Below, in pieces: positions 3,034-16,490 of a DNA stretch of 41,153 nt. Below the pieces are notes generated by a model. It was not told the DNA's origin and ran no database searches. It saw only the letters and a list, made by a program, of their open reading frames with translations. The stretch is from a virus. Position 1 is the first letter of the stretch. Every line of letters begins with the position of its first letter. A program made the position numbers and the translations under genes. Where the stretch lies: positions 1 to 41,153 of the IMG/VR virus record IMGVR_UViG_3300045912_000272; one strand, given 5' to 3'.

Positions 3034-3062
3034 ATCATACCGCACACCCGCACACAAGTCTA
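3034..3062 (-). promoter_or_regulatory. Leftward early promoter
   Basis: On the minus strand, TAGACT (3057-3062) and TATGAT (3034-3039) are 17 bp apart. The -35 is weak (4 of 6), and directly upstream of it begin four 11-bp tandem repeats (3064-3107). That is where an activator or upstream-element contact would sit. Confidence 0.6.
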
Positions 3063-3063
3063 T

Positions 3064-3107
3064 GATAAATACCTGATAAATACCTGATAAATACCTGATA
3101 AATACCT
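3064..3107. repeat. Four tandem 11-bp iterons (GATAAATACCT)
   Basis: Four perfect copies of GATAAATACCT run head to tail at 3064, 3075, 3086 and 3097, with a partial fifth (GATA) following. The 11-bp period is close to one DNA turn, so a protein bound to each would sit on one face of the helix. The array abuts the -35 box of the leftward promoter and lies between the two divergent operons. It is a candidate activator or repressor array, or a second replication element. Confidence 0.85.
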
Positions 3108-3165
3108 GATACGGCGCACCACGGATCGTTGACATCCCCGGTAGTGCGCCGCTTCCCAGCGCGCG

Positions 3166-3337: not shown

Positions 3338-3366
3338 TTGAAGTTCTTTTCTTGATCTGCTATACT
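3338..3366 (+). promoter_or_regulatory. Rightward promoter of the HTH gene
   Basis: TTGAAG (3338-3343) and TATACT (3361-3366) are separated by 17 bp, and TGC before the -10 makes it an extended -10 promoter. The start site would lie about 25 bases before the ribosome binding site of the 3399 gene. Small GATC-containing symmetric motifs surround the -10. Confidence 0.7.
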
Positions 3367-3398: not shown

Positions 3399-3614
3399 AT
3401 GTTTGATCACTTTTTTGCAACACTCAAGACGTTTGGGCCGCCCGCTGAACAGGCCCGGCGGCTAGGCGTAACAACCCGTGCGATTGATAATTGGAAAAGC
3501 GGCGAAATCCCGAGCTGGCTGCACCGCTTGCGCCGAAATCCCGAACTCCTCATCGCGCTCCTCCAGGATGCGCAAGCAACTGATGAACGGAAGCAATCTT
3601 CAGAAAACGCTTGA
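3399..3614 (+). CDS. Cro-like helix-turn-helix regulator, 71 aa
   Basis: The start ATG follows AAGAGGAATGCT. Residues 15-38 (AEQARRLGVTTRAIDNWKSG) are a textbook helix-turn-helix of the Cro / YdaS type, and the protein has little besides it. The length fits Cro-like phage regulators. It is the first rightward gene, and the -35 of the next promoter (3611-3639) overlaps its stop codon. It probably binds one of the nearby symmetric sites: the 16-bp-arm inverted repeat at 3618-3660, the 11-bp iterons at 3064-3107, or both. The DNA-binding role is well supported by the motif; the target is inferred from position. Confidence 0.85.
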   Translation: MFDHFFATLKTFGPPAEQARRLGVTTRAIDNWKSGEIPSWLHRLRRNPELLIALLQDAQATDERKQSSENA

Positions 3615-3639
3615 CATCTGAACTTTTCTTCTGTATAAT
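3611..3639 (+). promoter_or_regulatory. Consensus rightward early promoter
   Basis: Perfect TTGACA (3611-3616) and perfect TATAAT (3634-3639) with a 17-bp spacer. This is the strongest promoter in the genome and drives the replication operon beginning at 3684. The -35 overlaps the stop codon of the upstream HTH gene, and the -10 sits in the centre of a large inverted repeat. Confidence 0.85.
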
Positions 3640-4624: not shown

Positions 4625-4891
4625 ATGCAGTATCAGCAGACCGTGCGCCTGGCGCGGATTGTCGCGCGCCAGGCAAACCTCCCCATCCGCCAGGCGCACC
4701 TGGCGGTCTGCGACGTGTTGGTGTGCCGGCGGCCGTCGCGCTACCGCGCCGATGTGCTGCTGGCGCTAGCGGCATCCGATCCGGATGACGCGCCGCTGCC
4801 GACCGATGCGCCGGGCGATGACTGCCCGGAGCACGGGCCGTACGACGGCAGCCCGGGGGACTGCCCCCATTGCCAGGAGGAGAAACCATGA
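4625..4891 (+). CDS. Small protein with C-terminal zinc knuckle, 88 aa
   Basis: I chose the ATG at 4625, one base after the TGA of the preceding gene, over an upstream in-frame ATG at 4571 that lies inside that gene. The N-terminal 55 residues form Arg/Ala-rich helices with a Cys-Val motif (AVCDVLVCRR). The C-terminus has CPEHG and CPHC separated by about nine residues, which would make a small zinc-binding knuckle. It overlaps the next gene by four bases. This is probably a small nucleic-acid-associated protein; the function is unknown. Confidence 0.65.
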   Translation: MQYQQTVRLARIVARQANLPIRQAHLAVCDVLVCRRPSRYRADVLLALAASDPDDAPLPTDAPGDDCPEHGPYDGSPGDCPHCQEEKP

Positions 4892-5163
4892 CGCACACCA
4901 TCGCACCGACCACGTTGCGCCGCGTGTGGGCGCACGTCAGCCGCTATCCGGCGATGTCGTGCGCCGAGCGCGGCGCCGTGCTTGGCATGGCGTCATCGAC
5001 CGTCTGGTGGGCGCTGCGCCGCCTGGCGGCGGCAGGCTACATCGTCATGCCGCCGCCGCACGTGCGCGGTGTGCCGATCACCGTCAACATCCCGCTGATG
5101 GTGCCGGACTCAGCCGGCGAGGAGGAGCGCACGGATGGATCGCGAGGAGGCGCCGATGCTTGA
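4888..5163 (+). CDS. Small winged-helix/HTH protein, 91 aa
   Basis: The ATG at 4888 follows CCAGGAGGAGAAACC and overlaps the previous stop. Residues 8-60 have the pattern of a winged helix: a first helix, then SCAERGAVLGMASSTVWWALR as helix-turn-helix, then LAAAGYIVMP as the start of the wing. This resembles the MarR/Lrp-like reading heads that phages use in regulators and replication loaders. It stands two genes ahead of the replication initiator. DNA binding is likely; the target is unknown. Confidence 0.7.
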   Translation: MTHTIAPTTLRRVWAHVSRYPAMSCAERGAVLGMASSTVWWALRRLAAAGYIVMPPPHVRGVPITVNIPLMVPDSAGEEERTDGSRGGADA

Positions 5164-5566
5164 TCCGGAGTTGGTGATCGCGGTGCTCATGGGCACCGCC
5201 ACCGACAGCGACCGCGCCACGCTGCACATTGCCGCGCTGCAGGCGCTGGTGGCGCGCGAGCAGTGCGAGAGCGCCTACTGGCGCGCGCGCGCGGCGCACG
5301 AACACGACGCGCAGGCGCGCGCGGTCGGCGACTATGAGCGCAGTCTGGCGATCATTGCCAATCTGAGCGCCGACCTGGCAACAGCGCGCACGCTGCATCA
5401 GCAACAATCCGACAATTGTCGGCAATTGAGCGCATTGGCCATGGACGCCGCCGCCCGCGTGGCTCACACCCGCCGCCGGGTGCGCGCGCTCTTGCGGCAA
5501 TGCGCCCGATTGCGCGTCCAGCGCGACGCGGCGGCCACGCCGCAGCACACGGAGAGGCCCACATGA
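5135..5566 (+). CDS. Coiled-coil-type hypothetical protein, 143 aa
   Basis: Two starts are possible. ATG 5135 stands behind GGCGAGGAGGAGCGC, and ATG 5156 stands behind GAGGAGG at better spacing; the second would give 136 aa and a 4-codon overlap with the previous gene. From residue 40 on the product is one long Ala/Arg/Gln-rich helix with heptad-like spacing, and the C-terminal 40 residues are very basic (RRRVRALLRQ). It overlaps the initiator gene by ATGA. It may be a helical accessory factor for the initiator or helicase, which is inference from position. Confidence 0.65.
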   Translation: MDREEAPMLDPELVIAVLMGTATDSDRATLHIAALQALVAREQCESAYWRARAAHEHDAQARAVGDYERSLAIIANLSADLATARTLHQQQSDNCRQLSALAMDAAARVAHTRRRVRALLRQCARLRVQRDAAATPQHTERPT

Positions 5567-6540
5567 GCTGGATCGCACCGATCCCGTCGGATTTCTGGAC
5601 GCGGCCCGACATCGCCGATCTGACCGCGCCCGCGCTGCGGCTGCTCGGGCTCACGTATCAGCGCGTGGACAAGCGCAGCGCCACCGCCGTCGTGCAATTG
5701 CGCGAGATGGCCGAGGATCTGGCCGTGCCCTACGACACGATCCGGCGCGCCTGGCATGCCGTGCGCGCCGGTGTCTGGTTTCGCCAGGTCGACGACCTGG
5801 GTCGCCTGGGGTTTCGAGTCTGGTTCGCCGACGACTGGATTGAGTGGCATGTGATGCCGGCGCCTCAGCGATCAAAAATGATCGTTGAGGCGCATGCGGA
5901 GACGCCGTCACCGGCGCCTCAACGATCAAAAATGATCGTTGAGCATACACAAGCGGTGCCTGAACGGCATTTCAACGGCATTTCAACGGCATTTCAGCGA
6001 TCAAAAATGATCGTTGACGACAACACTATCATTATAGATCCATGGATTCATGAATCCAGCAGCAGCAGCAGCAGCACAAGTCGTAATCAGCACGATCGTG
6101 GGTTGCCGCCGCCGCTGCCGGAATTGCCAACAGCCGAACCGGCCACGACCGAACCGGACTCAGCCGAGCCGATCCTGGCCGAGCCAGATCCAGCCGAGCC
6201 GATCCTGGCCGAACTGCTGAATCGCCCGCTGCGACCGTCTGAACGGCGCGATCTGGCAGCGCTGGCCGGGACGTATGGCGCGGAATGGCTGTTGCTGGCG
6301 GCGATTCAAGCGCGCGATCACCAGGCGCGCGCGCCGATGGCGTATGTGCGCCGGACGCTGATCGATGCGCGGCGTGCGGATGCGCCGCCCGGATCGCCGA
6401 AGCGGGCGCGGGCCAGTCCGGATCGTCGCAGCGATCCGCCGCCCGATCCGCCGCCCGATCCGACCCCGGTGCTGTCACCAGCCGAACGCGCGGCACTGGC
6501 CGCCACACTGCCGAATCCGTTTCTTGCGAGGAGCCGATGA
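5563..6540 (+). CDS. Replication initiator / replisome organiser with internal origin, 325 aa
   Basis: The ATG at 5563 overlaps the previous stop, and GGAGAGG lies upstream. Residues 1-95 look like a winged-helix DNA-binding domain typical of phage initiators (lambda O, replisome organisers). Residues 100-165 are a linker in which QRSKMIV occurs three times (102, 120, 145), an effect of the DNA palindromes below it. A Ser run (165-171) and Pro/Glu repeats (AEPILAE twice) follow. Residues 215-325 form a second helical domain likely to bind the helicase. The DnaB gene follows directly with an ATGA overlap. Gene order and the internal iterons match the lambda O/ori plan. No sequence family was confirmed. 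Confidence 0.75.
   Translation: MSWIAPIPSDFWTRPDIADLTAPALRLLGLTYQRVDKRSATAVVQLREMAEDLAVPYDTIRRAWHAVRAGVWFRQVDDLGRLGFRVWFADDWIEWHVMPAPQRSKMIVEAHAETPSPAPQRSKMIVEHTQAVPERHFNGISTAFQRSKMIVDDNTIIIDPWIHESSSSSSSTSRNQHDRGLPPPLPELPTAEPATTEPDSAEPILAEPDPAEPILAELLNRPLRPSERRDLAALAGTYGAEWLLLAAIQARDHQARAPMAYVRRTLIDARRADAPPGSPKRARASPDRRSDPPPDPPPDPTPVLSPAERAALAATLPNPFLARSR
5860..6060. other. Putative replication origin inside the initiator gene
   Basis: There are three palindromic sites with the core TCARCGATCA-AAAA-TGATCGTTGA: arms 5860-5874/5879-5893 (extended to 15 bp), 5918-5928/5933-5943 and 5994-6003/6008-6017. Between the second and third lie three perfect 11-bp direct repeats ACGGCATTTCA (5964-5996). 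An AT-rich stretch (6018-6047) and a perfect 16-bp palindrome TGGATTCATGAATCCA follow. Iterons in the middle of the initiator gene followed by an AT-rich element are the layout of the lambda origin. The assignment is inferred from this layout. Confidence 0.75.
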
Positions 6541-7928
6541 CATCAACAACCCGAACCGCCGCCGACGCGATGATCCGACCGAATTACCTGGAGTTGCCGC
6601 ATGACCTGGAGGCCGAACAGGCGCTTTTGGGATCGATCCTGCAAAATCGCGATGTGCTGCCCGCCGTGCGCCCGCTCGTGGCGCCGGACGCGTTTTATCT
6701 TGCGCGGCACGCCGATCTGTACGCCGCGATGCTGCGGCTGCTGGATCAGCGCACGCCGCCCGACACGCGCACGCTTGCCATTGCGCTCGGACGTGATGGG
6801 CTGGACCGCATCGGCGGCGTGGCGTATCTGACGGATCTGGCGACCGGCGTGTTTGTGAGCGTCCATGCCGAGCACTATGCGCGCCGCATTCAGACTCTTG
6901 CCATCCAGCGCGCGCTGATCGACGCCGGCGGGCGCATTGCCGCGCTCGCGTACCAGGCGTATCAAGCGCCGGAGCGACCGCTTGACGAGGTTCTTACCGC
7001 GGCGCAGCACCTGCTGACGCAGGTGCGCGAGCGGGCGATTGCGGGCCACGCGCCGGTTGCGATGCTCGACATCGCCGGCGATCTGTACGAGCGCCTGACG
7101 GCCGAAACACCGCCGCGCGGCGCCGCAACCGGATTGACCGAGCTGGATCGCCTGCTGGGCGCGCTGTATCCGGGCAATTTGTACGTGCTGGCCGCGCGGC
7201 CGGGGGTCGGGAAAACTGCGCTGGCGCTCACCATGGCGCTGGCGGCCAGCGACACCGGGCGGGTGCTGATCTGCGCATTGGAGATGACGCGCGCGGAGAT
7301 TGGCAGCCGGGTGCTGGCGCACGCCACGGGTCTGGATGCGCAGCGCTTACACGGGGTGCGCCTGCGCAGTGACGATCTGCCGCGCGTGGTGCAGGGCCTC
7401 GGCACGATTGGCAACGTGCCGATCTGGGTCGACGATCAGGCCGGTGTGTCGGTTGACGAGATTTGCGCCCGCGCGGCGGTGTTTGCGCAGGCAGATGGCC
7501 ATCCGCCTGCGCTGATCGTCATCGATCACCTGGGCCTGATCCGGATCGAGCTGGCGCGCGGCGAAAACGAGGCCGCCGCCGTCGGGCGGGTAACGCGGCG
7601 CTTGAAGCAACTCGCGAAGGACCTGGCGACGCCCGTGCTGCTGCTGGTGCAGCTCAATCGCAACGTCGAGCACCGCACGAATCGGGTGCCACAACTCAGT
7701 GATCTGCGCGACTCGGGCCGGATCGAGGAAGACGCCGATGTCGTGATCTGCATGTATCGCGAGGAGCTCTACGACAAAGCGACCGACCGGAAGGGCATTG
7801 CCGAGCTGCACATTGCCAAGCACCGCAACGGCCCACTGGGCGTGATCACATGCCAGTTCGACGCGCCCACGATGACGTTCCGCGACGCGTGGTTCCGCAC
7901 CCCGGAGGGCTCCTCGGATGGACACTGA
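6537..7928 (+). CDS. dnaB: Replicative DNA helicase, DnaB family, 463 aa
   Basis: This unwinds DNA at the phage fork as a hexamer. The ATG at 6537 overlaps the initiator stop behind GAGGAGCCG. Residues 18-125 are the DnaB N-terminal domain (PHDLEAEQALLGSIL). Residues 195-450 are the RecA-like domain with Walker A ARPGVGKTA at 220-228, the H1a-type CALEMTRAEIGSR at about 246, Walker B LIVIDHLGL, and the DnaB loop/arginine-finger region (QLSDLRDSGRIEEDADVV). The length equals bacterial DnaB, so it should not need the host helicase. No separate primase was found, so priming probably uses host DnaG. The call is very secure. Confidence 0.95.
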   Translation: MTSTTRTAADAMIRPNYLELPHDLEAEQALLGSILQNRDVLPAVRPLVAPDAFYLARHADLYAAMLRLLDQRTPPDTRTLAIALGRDGLDRIGGVAYLTDLATGVFVSVHAEHYARRIQTLAIQRALIDAGGRIAALAYQAYQAPERPLDEVLTAAQHLLTQVRERAIAGHAPVAMLDIAGDLYERLTAETPPRGAATGLTELDRLLGALYPGNLYVLAARPGVGKTALALTMALAASDTGRVLICALEMTRAEIGSRVLAHATGLDAQRLHGVRLRSDDLPRVVQGLGTIGNVPIWVDDQAGVSVDEICARAAVFAQADGHPPALIVIDHLGLIRIELARGENEAAAVGRVTRRLKQLAKDLATPVLLLVQLNRNVEHRTNRVPQLSDLRDSGRIEEDADVVICMYREELYDKATDRKGIAELHIAKHRNGPLGVITCQFDAPTMTFRDAWFRTPEGSSDGH

Positions 7929-9070: not shown

Positions 9071-9303
9071 CCACGCCAACGCAATGCCGGATGTTCCCGC
9101 CCGATCCGTGGCACCTCGCACGCCACGGCTGGCAGATTGTGGCGGAGGAGCCATCACCGGACGGCGCGCCCGGCTACCGGCTGTTTCCGACGTCGCCACG
9201 CGGCAACCAGGATGCTGCGTGGGTCAGTGCGCGCGAATTGCCGCAGATTGTGGCCGCGTGGGAGCGCTCGACGCGAGGAACATCGAAAGGATTTGCGGAA
9301 TGA
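9067..9303 (+). CDS. Hypothetical protein, 78 aa
   Basis: It starts with an ATGA overlap behind GCAGGAGACATTTGT and ends with an ATGA overlap into the PP-loop gene. The product is a compact Trp/Pro-rich protein (PPDPWHLARHGWQIV near residues 11-25) with a plausible small alpha/beta fold. It is tightly coupled to the 9300 gene, so it may work with it, but no family is recognised. Confidence 0.6.
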   Translation: MTTPTQCRMFPPDPWHLARHGWQIVAEEPSPDGAPGYRLFPTSPRGNQDAAWVSARELPQIVAAWERSTRGTSKGFAE

Positions 9304-10046
9304 TCGCAGTCCTCAGTTATGGCGGGGGGGTGCAGTCGGTGGCCATGGTGCTGCTGGTGCTCGCGGGCAAATTGCCGCGTCCGGATTATTGCGTCTCCGC
9401 CGACACGAGCCGCGAAATGCCGACTACGTGGGAATATTTGCAAACACACATCGCGCCGCGCTTTGCAGCGGCGGGCATGACCATGCACATCGCGGATCAT
9501 CGCCGGGCGGCGGTCGATTTGTACGGGCTGAACGGCGATCTGCTCATTCCGGCCTACACCGCCACGGCGAAACTCCCGACGTACTGCTCGACGGAATGGA
9601 AGGCGCGGCCAGTCGCTCGCCTGGTGGCCGAATTGTCTGGGCGTCCGCAAGCCGAACAGATCCATTGGATCGGATTTTCGCTCGACGAACGCCGGCGCAT
9701 CAAAACCCGCGACCAATCGCGGCGCTATCCGCTCATCGACCTGATGATGACGAGAACGGATTGCGAACGGCTGATCGCTGAGGCTGGATTGCCGTTGCCG
9801 AACAAATCGCGCTGCTGGATGTGCCCGCACCAGAACGCACACGAATGGCGCGAGGTCCTCTCCGACCCCACGTTGCGTGAGCAGGCCGCGCAATTGGACG
9901 CCGAGATCCGCGACAACGACGCGCGCGGCGGGGTGTATTTGCACGCATCGCGCCAGCCACTCGCCGATCTCGATCCGGCCACGCTCACCGACGCCGGGCG
10001 GCGAGGAGCGGATCGCCAGTGTGGTTTGGGATTGTGTTTTGTCTGA
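9300..10046 (+). CDS. PP-loop ATP pyrophosphatase, PAPS reductase-like, 248 aa
   Basis: The N-terminus SYGGGVQSVAM (residues 6-16) is a PP-loop nucleotide-binding motif of the adenine-nucleotide alpha-hydrolase superfamily, which includes PAPS reductase and DndC. Further family features are CVSADTSRE near 31, YCSTEWK near 95, and CWMCP at 172-176, a Cys pair typical of the phage branch. The catalytic reductase Cys context of true CysH is not obvious. Members activate a substrate by adenylation; in phages the substrate is unknown, and DNA or tRNA sulphur or base modification has been proposed. It is coupled to an endonuclease gene. The fold is secure and the reaction open. Confidence 0.85.
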   Translation: MIAVLSYGGGVQSVAMVLLVLAGKLPRPDYCVSADTSREMPTTWEYLQTHIAPRFAAAGMTMHIADHRRAAVDLYGLNGDLLIPAYTATAKLPTYCSTEWKARPVARLVAELSGRPQAEQIHWIGFSLDERRRIKTRDQSRRYPLIDLMMTRTDCERLIAEAGLPLPNKSRCWMCPHQNAHEWREVLSDPTLREQAAQLDAEIRDNDARGGVYLHASRQPLADLDPATLTDAGRRGADRQCGLGLCFV

Positions 10047-15454: not shown

Positions 15455-15873
15455 CCACACAGACAACCGCTGCCGATCTGATCGCTACCGAACTCCGCAA
15501 TGCCCGCGCCGCGTGGCCGAACAACCCGTCGCTGGCGCACGGCCTGGCGCTCGTCGCAGAGGAGATTGACGAATACTGGGAGTTGGTCAAGGTCAACCAG
15601 CAGCGCCACGATCATCCAGCAATGATCCGCGAATTGATCCAGGTGGCGGCGATGGCACACCGAGCGTATGAGGATGCGTTCGACGGGTCGCTGTCGCCGT
15701 TGTGCGGTGAGGTCTTTGTGTCGCCGCACGATACCGCGTGGCATCTGCGTCAGGCGATGGTCCGGTTGGCGTACTGCGACGGCACATTAGCAAACGGCGT
15801 GCGCTATTGGCTTCGGGTGATTGTGACGCATGCCACATGCGCAATTGATGGACTGCAAGGAGGATCACGATGA
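15451..15873 (+). CDS. MazG-like nucleotide pyrophosphohydrolase candidate, 140 aa
   Basis: The ATG at 15451 overlaps the DHH stop. The helical pattern LALVAEEIDEYWELVK (about residues 28-43) followed some 20 residues later by RELIQVAAMAHRAYED matches the EExxE...E(x)xD metal-binding helices of all-alpha NTP pyrophosphatases, although the second motif starts RELIQ rather than EELAD, so one ligand may differ. Phage MazG-like enzymes adjust nucleotide or ppGpp pools. The neighbouring DHH and DUF5662 (HD-like) genes support a nucleotide-metabolism cassette. Family assignment is moderate. Confidence 0.6.
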   Translation: MTTQTTAADLIATELRNARAAWPNNPSLAHGLALVAEEIDEYWELVKVNQQRHDHPAMIRELIQVAAMAHRAYEDAFDGSLSPLCGEVFVSPHDTAWHLRQAMVRLAYCDGTLANGVRYWLRVIVTHATCAIDGLQGGSR

Positions 15874-16490
15874 CCTACCACGTTGGGGATCTGGTGTCGC
15901 TGGTCGCCGATAATGTCGCCACATCCGGCGAAATTATCGCTATCCGCGATGGGGACTACCCGTATCAGGTGCGCGATATTCACGGGACTATGGACTGGTA
16001 TCGTGCCGACGAAGTGTATGCCTACGATAGTCGGCATGAAACGCGCAGGCACATTGATCGTGTGCGTGCGCTGCTGCACGTGTGTATTGCTGATCTTACA
16101 CAGCGCGCACGCGCACATGATCGGTCGAAACTTGAATCGCCTGAGCGCGAAATGTTCGACCGCTACACGCCGCTGCTGAGTCGTTTGACCTACGGATCGC
16201 CAGAATATGCGGCGATTCGCCAGGAAATGCTCCAAACGGCACTGCAGCACCACTACGAGCATAACGACCACCATCCAGAACACTATCCAAACGGCATCAA
16301 CGGCATGACGCTCATGGCATTGATCGAAATGCTCTGCGACTGGAAGGCCGCAGGCGAACGGCACGCTGATGGGAGTCTGCACAAGAGTTTGGCGTACAAC
16401 CGCACCCGCTTCGGCGCGGTTGATCTGTATCAAATTATGGAAAACACCGCCCGCGCAATGGGATGGCTAGACACGACTGATCGATCGTGA
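15870..16490 (+). CDS. DUF5662 family protein (HD-like metal-binding), 206 aa
   Basis: The start is behind AAGGAGGATCACG with an ATGA overlap. Residues 60-195 follow the DUF5662 pattern: HDRSKLESPE, YGSPEY, ALQHHYEHNDHHPEHYPNG, MLCDWKAAGERH and the terminal NTA. The dense His/Asp pattern is what is expected of an HD-type metal site, but no activity has been shown for the family. The N-terminal 50 residues (YHVGDLVSLVADN...) look like an added SH3-like barrel. It is the last rightward gene; its end overlaps the convergent 16467-16907 gene by 24 bp. Base composition is slightly lower in GC than neighbours. Confidence 0.85.
   Translation: MTYHVGDLVSLVADNVATSGEIIAIRDGDYPYQVRDIHGTMDWYRADEVYAYDSRHETRRHIDRVRALLHVCIADLTQRARAHDRSKLESPEREMFDRYTPLLSRLTYGSPEYAAIRQEMLQTALQHHYEHNDHHPEHYPNGINGMTLMALIEMLCDWKAAGERHADGSLHKSLAYNRTRFGAVDLYQIMENTARAMGWLDTTDRS

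Follow-up and report, generated by a model that had tools for sequence, protein, structure and literature searches.

A candidate theta-replication origin inside the initiator gene of a phage with a probable Chloroflexota host

The locus and its genome

At positions 5563 to 6540 of the window, by which we mean the whole stretch of DNA analysed here (an entire IMG/VR virus record of 41,153 nt), lies a gene for a putative replication initiator. It is followed at once by a gene for a complete DnaB-type helicase: the stop codon of the former and the start codon of the latter share a 4-bp overlap, ATGA, which bears out the preliminary description in placing the gene directly upstream of dnaB. The middle of the initiator gene carries the repeated sites that are the subject of this work, and an AT-rich array lies at about 3.06 kb. 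The features are, in window coordinates:

5563..6540, + strand: putative replication initiator of 325 aa (P0001), an open reading frame that matches nothing in Pfam or PHROGs and no PDB sequence in a meaningful way
5865..5888: palindromic site 1, TCAGCGATCAAAAATGATCGTTGA, from the sequence pattern
5919..5942: palindromic site 2, TCAACGATCAAAAATGATCGTTGA, perfect, with 11-bp arms reaching 5918-5943, from the sequence pattern
5963..5995, + strand: three tandem 11-bp repeats of AACGGCATTTC, from repeat and half-site analysis
5994..6017: palindromic site 3, TCAGCGATCAAAAATGATCGTTGA, from the sequence pattern
6018..6042: stretch of low stability and candidate DNA unwinding element, from a stability scan
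6043..6058: 16-bp palindrome TGGATTCATGAATCCA closing the AT-rich stretch, not significant alone, with a CAG run after it to 6076
6537..7928, + strand: DnaB-type replicative helicase, 463 aa, complete (PF03796, 2.3e-72; PF00772, 4.3e-24; phrog_19, 3e-98)
3063..3111: candidate second site, a perfect AT-rich 11-bp tandem array of 4.5 copies of TGATAAATACC in a divergent intergenic region, from stability and repeat analysis
3123..3132, - strand: single half-site-like sequence TCAACGATCC beside the AT-rich array, from a half-site search

The record ends in a terminal direct repeat of 127 bp, a sign that the genome is circular or complete; its length is then about 41.0 kb. Early genes occupy the + strand between 3.4 and 16.5 kb, and the structural genes lie on the - strand. 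The terminase shares 68% identity with its counterpart in viral contig G001, and its nearest relatives among genomes are found in Chloroflexota metagenome-assembled genomes (51-56% identity); because of these relatives, the host of the virus is probably a member of the Chloroflexota. A perfect sigma-70 consensus promoter (TTGACA-17-TATAAT) stands at 3611-3639, ahead of the + strand early genes, and the early region also includes a phosphoadenosine phosphosulfate reductase-like gene (9300-10046; phrog_424, 8e-28) and a DUF5662 gene (15870-16490; 1.5e-33).

The putative initiator

The layout of the initiator comprises a predicted winged-helix-like N-terminus, a linker encoded by the site-bearing DNA, and a C-terminal part that is of low complexity and helical. 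Structural models gave a helix-helix-helix-strand-strand order at low confidence (mean pLDDT 43-48); this order of elements fits a winged-helix DNA-binding domain, and a fold search with the low-confidence model returned nothing usable.

Neither the whole protein nor its two ends matched any family in Pfam or PHROGs, including the PF04492 Phage_rep_O and PHROG O-like family profiles, and a comparison with PDB sequences gave no meaningful match. Searches of known phages by tblastn, of genome_contigs with the initiator, and of viral_contigs with both the initiator and its DnaB found nothing when run directly, and 400 Chloroflexota genomes yielded weak matches only. The N-terminus was most similar to a Chloroflexota protein of wHTH-like type in L182, and this similarity was itself weak (5.9e-6); in the collections searched, no homologue of the initiator was detectable beyond this wHTH-level similarity.

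Palindromic sites under selection at the DNA level

The three palindromes share a 24-bp form, TCARCGATCA-AAAA-TGATCGTTGA. The second is perfect, and the first and third have one mismatched pair in their 10-bp arms. Allowing up to three mismatches, the pattern had no copy elsewhere in the window (shuffle expectation 0.01); it was not found in viral_contigs, and it occurred at one place, with a single mismatch, in 400 Chloroflexota genomes. In 1000 synonymous recodings of the gene, no such palindrome ever appeared even twice, and the real gene holds three copies, so that the three palindromes of common core noted in the preliminary description are both present and above chance.

The encoded peptide QRSKMIV occurs three times, once per palindrome, and its R, S, K, I and V codons are the same in all copies (CGA, TCA, AAA, ATC and GTT). 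CGA, TCA and GTT are uncommon in this genome, each making up 5-8% of the codons for its amino acid, and the probability of all these codons being the same is about 2.6e-4 given the codon usage of the genome. These identical and partly uncommon codons agree with the earlier proposal that the peptide is repeated on account of the DNA sites. The palindromes are spaced by 54 and 75 bp, or 5.14 and 7.14 turns, each 0.14 turn beyond a whole number; they therefore face the same side of the helix.

Between palindromes 2 and 3 lie the three 11-bp direct repeats, which run into the start of palindrome 3. The period-11 match run of this array is 23 nt, compared with at most 12 nt in 2000 synonymous recodings, and the repeats are out of frame, so that different reading frames are traversed. 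Since the palindromes exceed what recodings produce, the QRSKMIV codons are identical and the 11-bp repeats cross reading frames, selection on both kinds of site acts on the DNA. The repeats had been described as sites additional to the palindromes. They are indeed present, but they do not clearly form a separate class, as they carry the half-site core of the palindromes: TCAACG at 5972 and 5983 stands two and one 11-bp steps ahead of the TCAGCG that begins palindrome 3 at 5994. We read the repeats as probable phased half-sites for the same protein that would bind the palindromes.

Directly after palindrome 3, the AT-rich stretch at 6018-6042 is among the least stable 20-60-bp places in the genome, although it is not significantly more AT-rich than the encoded peptide requires (P 0.06-0.18). 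The 16-bp palindrome that closes it is real, but an arm of 8 or more is present in 37% of synonymous recodings. Thus the stretch and its terminal palindrome exist as first described, while the palindrome is not significant and the AT content does not clearly exceed what the peptide calls for; recoded genes often have arms of this length, and we therefore gave the 16-bp palindrome no weight as evidence for the origin. Cumulative GC skew had also been suggested as a test for the origin. The skew follows the direction of the genes and offers no origin signal of its own.

Comparison with known in-gene origins

A close parallel in layout is phage P22, in which the annotated rep_origin lies inside the O-like initiator gene 18, and gene 18 overlaps the DnaB-like gene 12 by 4 bp. 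As in the window, the P22 iterons stand near the middle of the gene and are followed by an AT-rich tract, which is modest in the window and has short tandem repeats in P22. The iteron and initiator sequences differ between the two, and gp18 matches PF04492, whereas the window protein does not.

Phage lambda has four 18-bp iterons, and its gene P encodes a loader that takes the host DnaB; the window instead has three palindromes of 24 bp, half-sites in helical phase and a DnaB encoded by the phage. The likenesses to lambda are inverted-repeat iterons with an A-tract centre between the arms, their position in the middle of the initiator gene, an AT-rich tract after them, and a 4-bp overlap of the initiator by the downstream gene. 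The mid-gene array and the overlapping replication gene downstream, together with a following tract that is modest in the window, support the comparison with the lambda O/ori plan drawn in the preliminary description. Lambda O binds its mid-gene inverted-repeat iterons, which adjoin the AT-rich tract that is unwound (PMC7466680).

The same description had regarded the use of a full DnaB as making this a distinct variant. That argument fails, because P22 already pairs an origin within the initiator gene with a DnaB of its own, its genes 18 and 12 being laid out as here, including the 4-bp overlap. A phage-encoded DnaB next to such an origin is also described for phage L (PMC8022706). Gene 18 of phage L contains six 11-bp repeats, and its gene 12 product is by homology a DnaB-type helicase (PMC8022706), so that in-gene 11-bp repeats and a DnaB-type helicase are common to phage L and the window; however, the six phage L repeats are imprecise copies of TGTCCAACGGA, a different sequence, and no 24-bp palindromes are reported for it (PMC8022706).

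In SPP1, oriL lies inside gene 38, and a second, intergenic origin, oriR, is bound by the same protein (PMC6316719). SPP1 and the window thus share an origin position inside the initiator gene (that of gp38 in SPP1) and a phage-encoded DnaB-family helicase (PMC6316719), but SPP1 has a separate loader, gp39, between the initiator and the helicase gp40, and its second origin oriR is known. When the rest of the window was searched for these binding sites, as an SPP1-like second origin would need, only one imperfect half-site came up, near 3.1 kb.

Arrays in the initiator genes of other phages

Relatives were reached through the terminase and through alignment of DnaB. The comparison covers those in which the context was similar; DnaBs of L199 and L201-L220 stand in other contexts, that of L199 with a DnaC-like ATPase, and were left out. 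The DnaB of G001 is 44% identical to that of the window, and those of three further IMG/VR phages, G447 (L198), G448 (L200) and G449 (L221), are 39-43% identical. In these three the gene just before dnaB is a PF04492 Phage_rep_O initiator, and in G001 the corresponding gene has a sub-threshold HTH_36 match together with O-like PHROG matches.

Each of the eight other phages examined, which include lambda, P22 and the four IMG/VR phages, has an in-gene array, and each has its own site sequence. The repeated site is AAAAGGGGTA in G001, mainly as direct repeats, ACTAGTAACCCTAGGTAACCAGT in G447, ACTAGTCCACCAGGTAGACCAG in G448, as palindromes without a loop, and of the CCCTAGGG type, again palindromic, in G449, where the gene runs over the contig ends in that record. 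Arrays are likewise present in Thermobifida phage P1312 and in Streptomyces phage Picard, where the gene that follows carries no helicase annotation. In the window, the four IMG/VR phages, P22, P1312 and Picard, the array falls between 0.31 and 0.55 of the length of the initiator gene, mostly in mixed frames; in lambda the annotated iterons span 0.39-0.48 of O. Across these phages, then, the order of the genes and the place of the sites are kept, and the sequence of the sites is exchanged along with the initiator.

We also scanned blindly for 9-mers repeated at least three times in 200-bp windows, with P22 as the positive control. The initiator gene ranked first of 2048 windows in our genome, and the P22 origin ranked first in an 11.7-kb P22 stretch. 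The initiator came first in the stretches of G001 and G447 and tied for first in P1312; in G448 it was outranked by a repeat-protein gene. For metagenomic phages, this suggests a way to find origins independently of homology, by searching the gene ahead of dnaB for the most pronounced cluster of short repeats.

A ACACAAAAGA-type motif comes right after the last origin site in G447, G448, G449, P22 and lambda, despite their differing sites (L198 3200-3220, L200 3615-3650, L228 1884-1920, L223 2923-2961 and L232 520-560), and the AT-rich tract of the window is without such a motif.

Interpretation and alternative explanations

Taken together, the region is best explained as the origin from which the phage starts theta replication, contained within the gene for its initiator in the manner of lambda O and P22 gp18, a reading to which we assign a probability of about 0.88. 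The N-terminal domain, predicted to be a winged helix, would bind the three 24-bp palindromes, probably as dimers, and more weakly those half-sites that stand in helical phase within the 11-bp repeats. Bound initiator may then assemble into a nucleoprotein complex that occupies a single face of the helix, and strain from it could open the neighbouring AT-rich tract at about 6018-6042, and the C-terminal part of the protein would recruit DnaB from the overlapping downstream gene, presumably with no separate loader. The sites, the constraint on them at the DNA level, their position, the gene order and an architecture common to other phages are observed; binding, melting, helicase recruitment and the lack of a loader are what we infer from them. 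There is good support for describing this as a replicon of the P22 type, whose origin lies within the gene of an unrecognised initiator and has a recognition sequence of its own.

The main origin might instead be the array at 3063-3111, with the in-gene sites serving as a secondary origin or as a control locus for titration or autoregulation of the initiator. Of all 60-bp stretches in the genome the least stable, 3053-3112, overlaps this perfect 11-bp tandem array, a half-site with one mismatch lies 11 bp past it, and SPP1 offers a precedent for such a pair in its in-gene oriL and intergenic oriR (PMC6316719). However, the region has no palindrome and only that one imperfect half-site, the array unit is unlike the half-site, and the region, overlapped by promoter-like sites, resembles an early control region; moreover, the feature common to the phages compared is the in-gene array. 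We consider this inversion of roles quite unlikely, and regard 3063-3111 as a possible but unproven second site. Still less probable is that the palindromes serve a repressor or Cro-like regulator as its operators and are not an origin: palindromic 24-bp sites would suit a dimeric regulator, and small HTH genes lie nearby (3399-3614 and 4888-5163), yet all copies fall within one gene, none coincides with either promoter-like site (3338-3366 and 3611-3639), and their position matches that of the lambda and P22 origins.

Two further readings take the repeats to act as RNA or as protein, and we give each of them next to no weight. Folding of the transcript is unusually stable (z -8.5), with each palindrome a hairpin, as would be expected if the sites were hairpins in the initiator mRNA, controlling for instance the translation of the initiator or of dnaB; but any DNA palindrome gives rise to an RNA hairpin, and hairpins are not common to the phages compared, given the mainly direct repeats of G001 and the loopless palindromes of G448. 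The palindrome spacings are multiples of three, with the result that the peptide is repeated, which could reflect a repeated QRSKMIV motif, for example one that binds DnaB, or a palindromic element inserted in frame. A repeated peptide would not account for identical and partly uncommon codons, for 11-bp repeats that are out of frame, or for arrays in mixed frames in relatives, and against an inserted element stands the lack of any copy elsewhere in the window or in viral_contigs, with one single-mismatch place in 400 Chloroflexota genomes.

Within the reading as an in-gene origin, we tentatively put forward a more specific picture, which we rate as doubtful. One half-site would occur in two arrangements, as inverted pairs and as a direct run, phased by one turn, leading into a palindrome beside the unwinding tract. 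The initiator may switch from a dimer to a directional filament, taking melting and DnaB recruitment to one side; the AT-rich 11-bp array at 3.06 kb might be a second unwinding element or origin; and the initiator might represent an unrecognised O-like family. The in-gene origin itself would extend the lambda/P22 plan to a phage that has Chloroflexota prophages among its terminase relatives and whose initiator is recognised by no current profile.

Other repeat-bearing genes

Several additional genes seen during these searches carry repeats. Near the replication genes of L200, a gene at 1043-1909 is made up of repeated ARLTGADLTG units and is pentapeptide-repeat-like. In L182, from a Chloroflexota genome (G356), several apparent wHTH initiator-like genes lie in a row; one has 22- and 30-bp repeats in its linker, and another is the best match to the N-terminus of the window initiator. 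Lastly, L172 (G027) encodes at 166-1986 a 606-aa protein that joins a DnaB N-terminal-like part to a seemingly different ATPase, and the gene has GATC-rich inverted repeats inside it.
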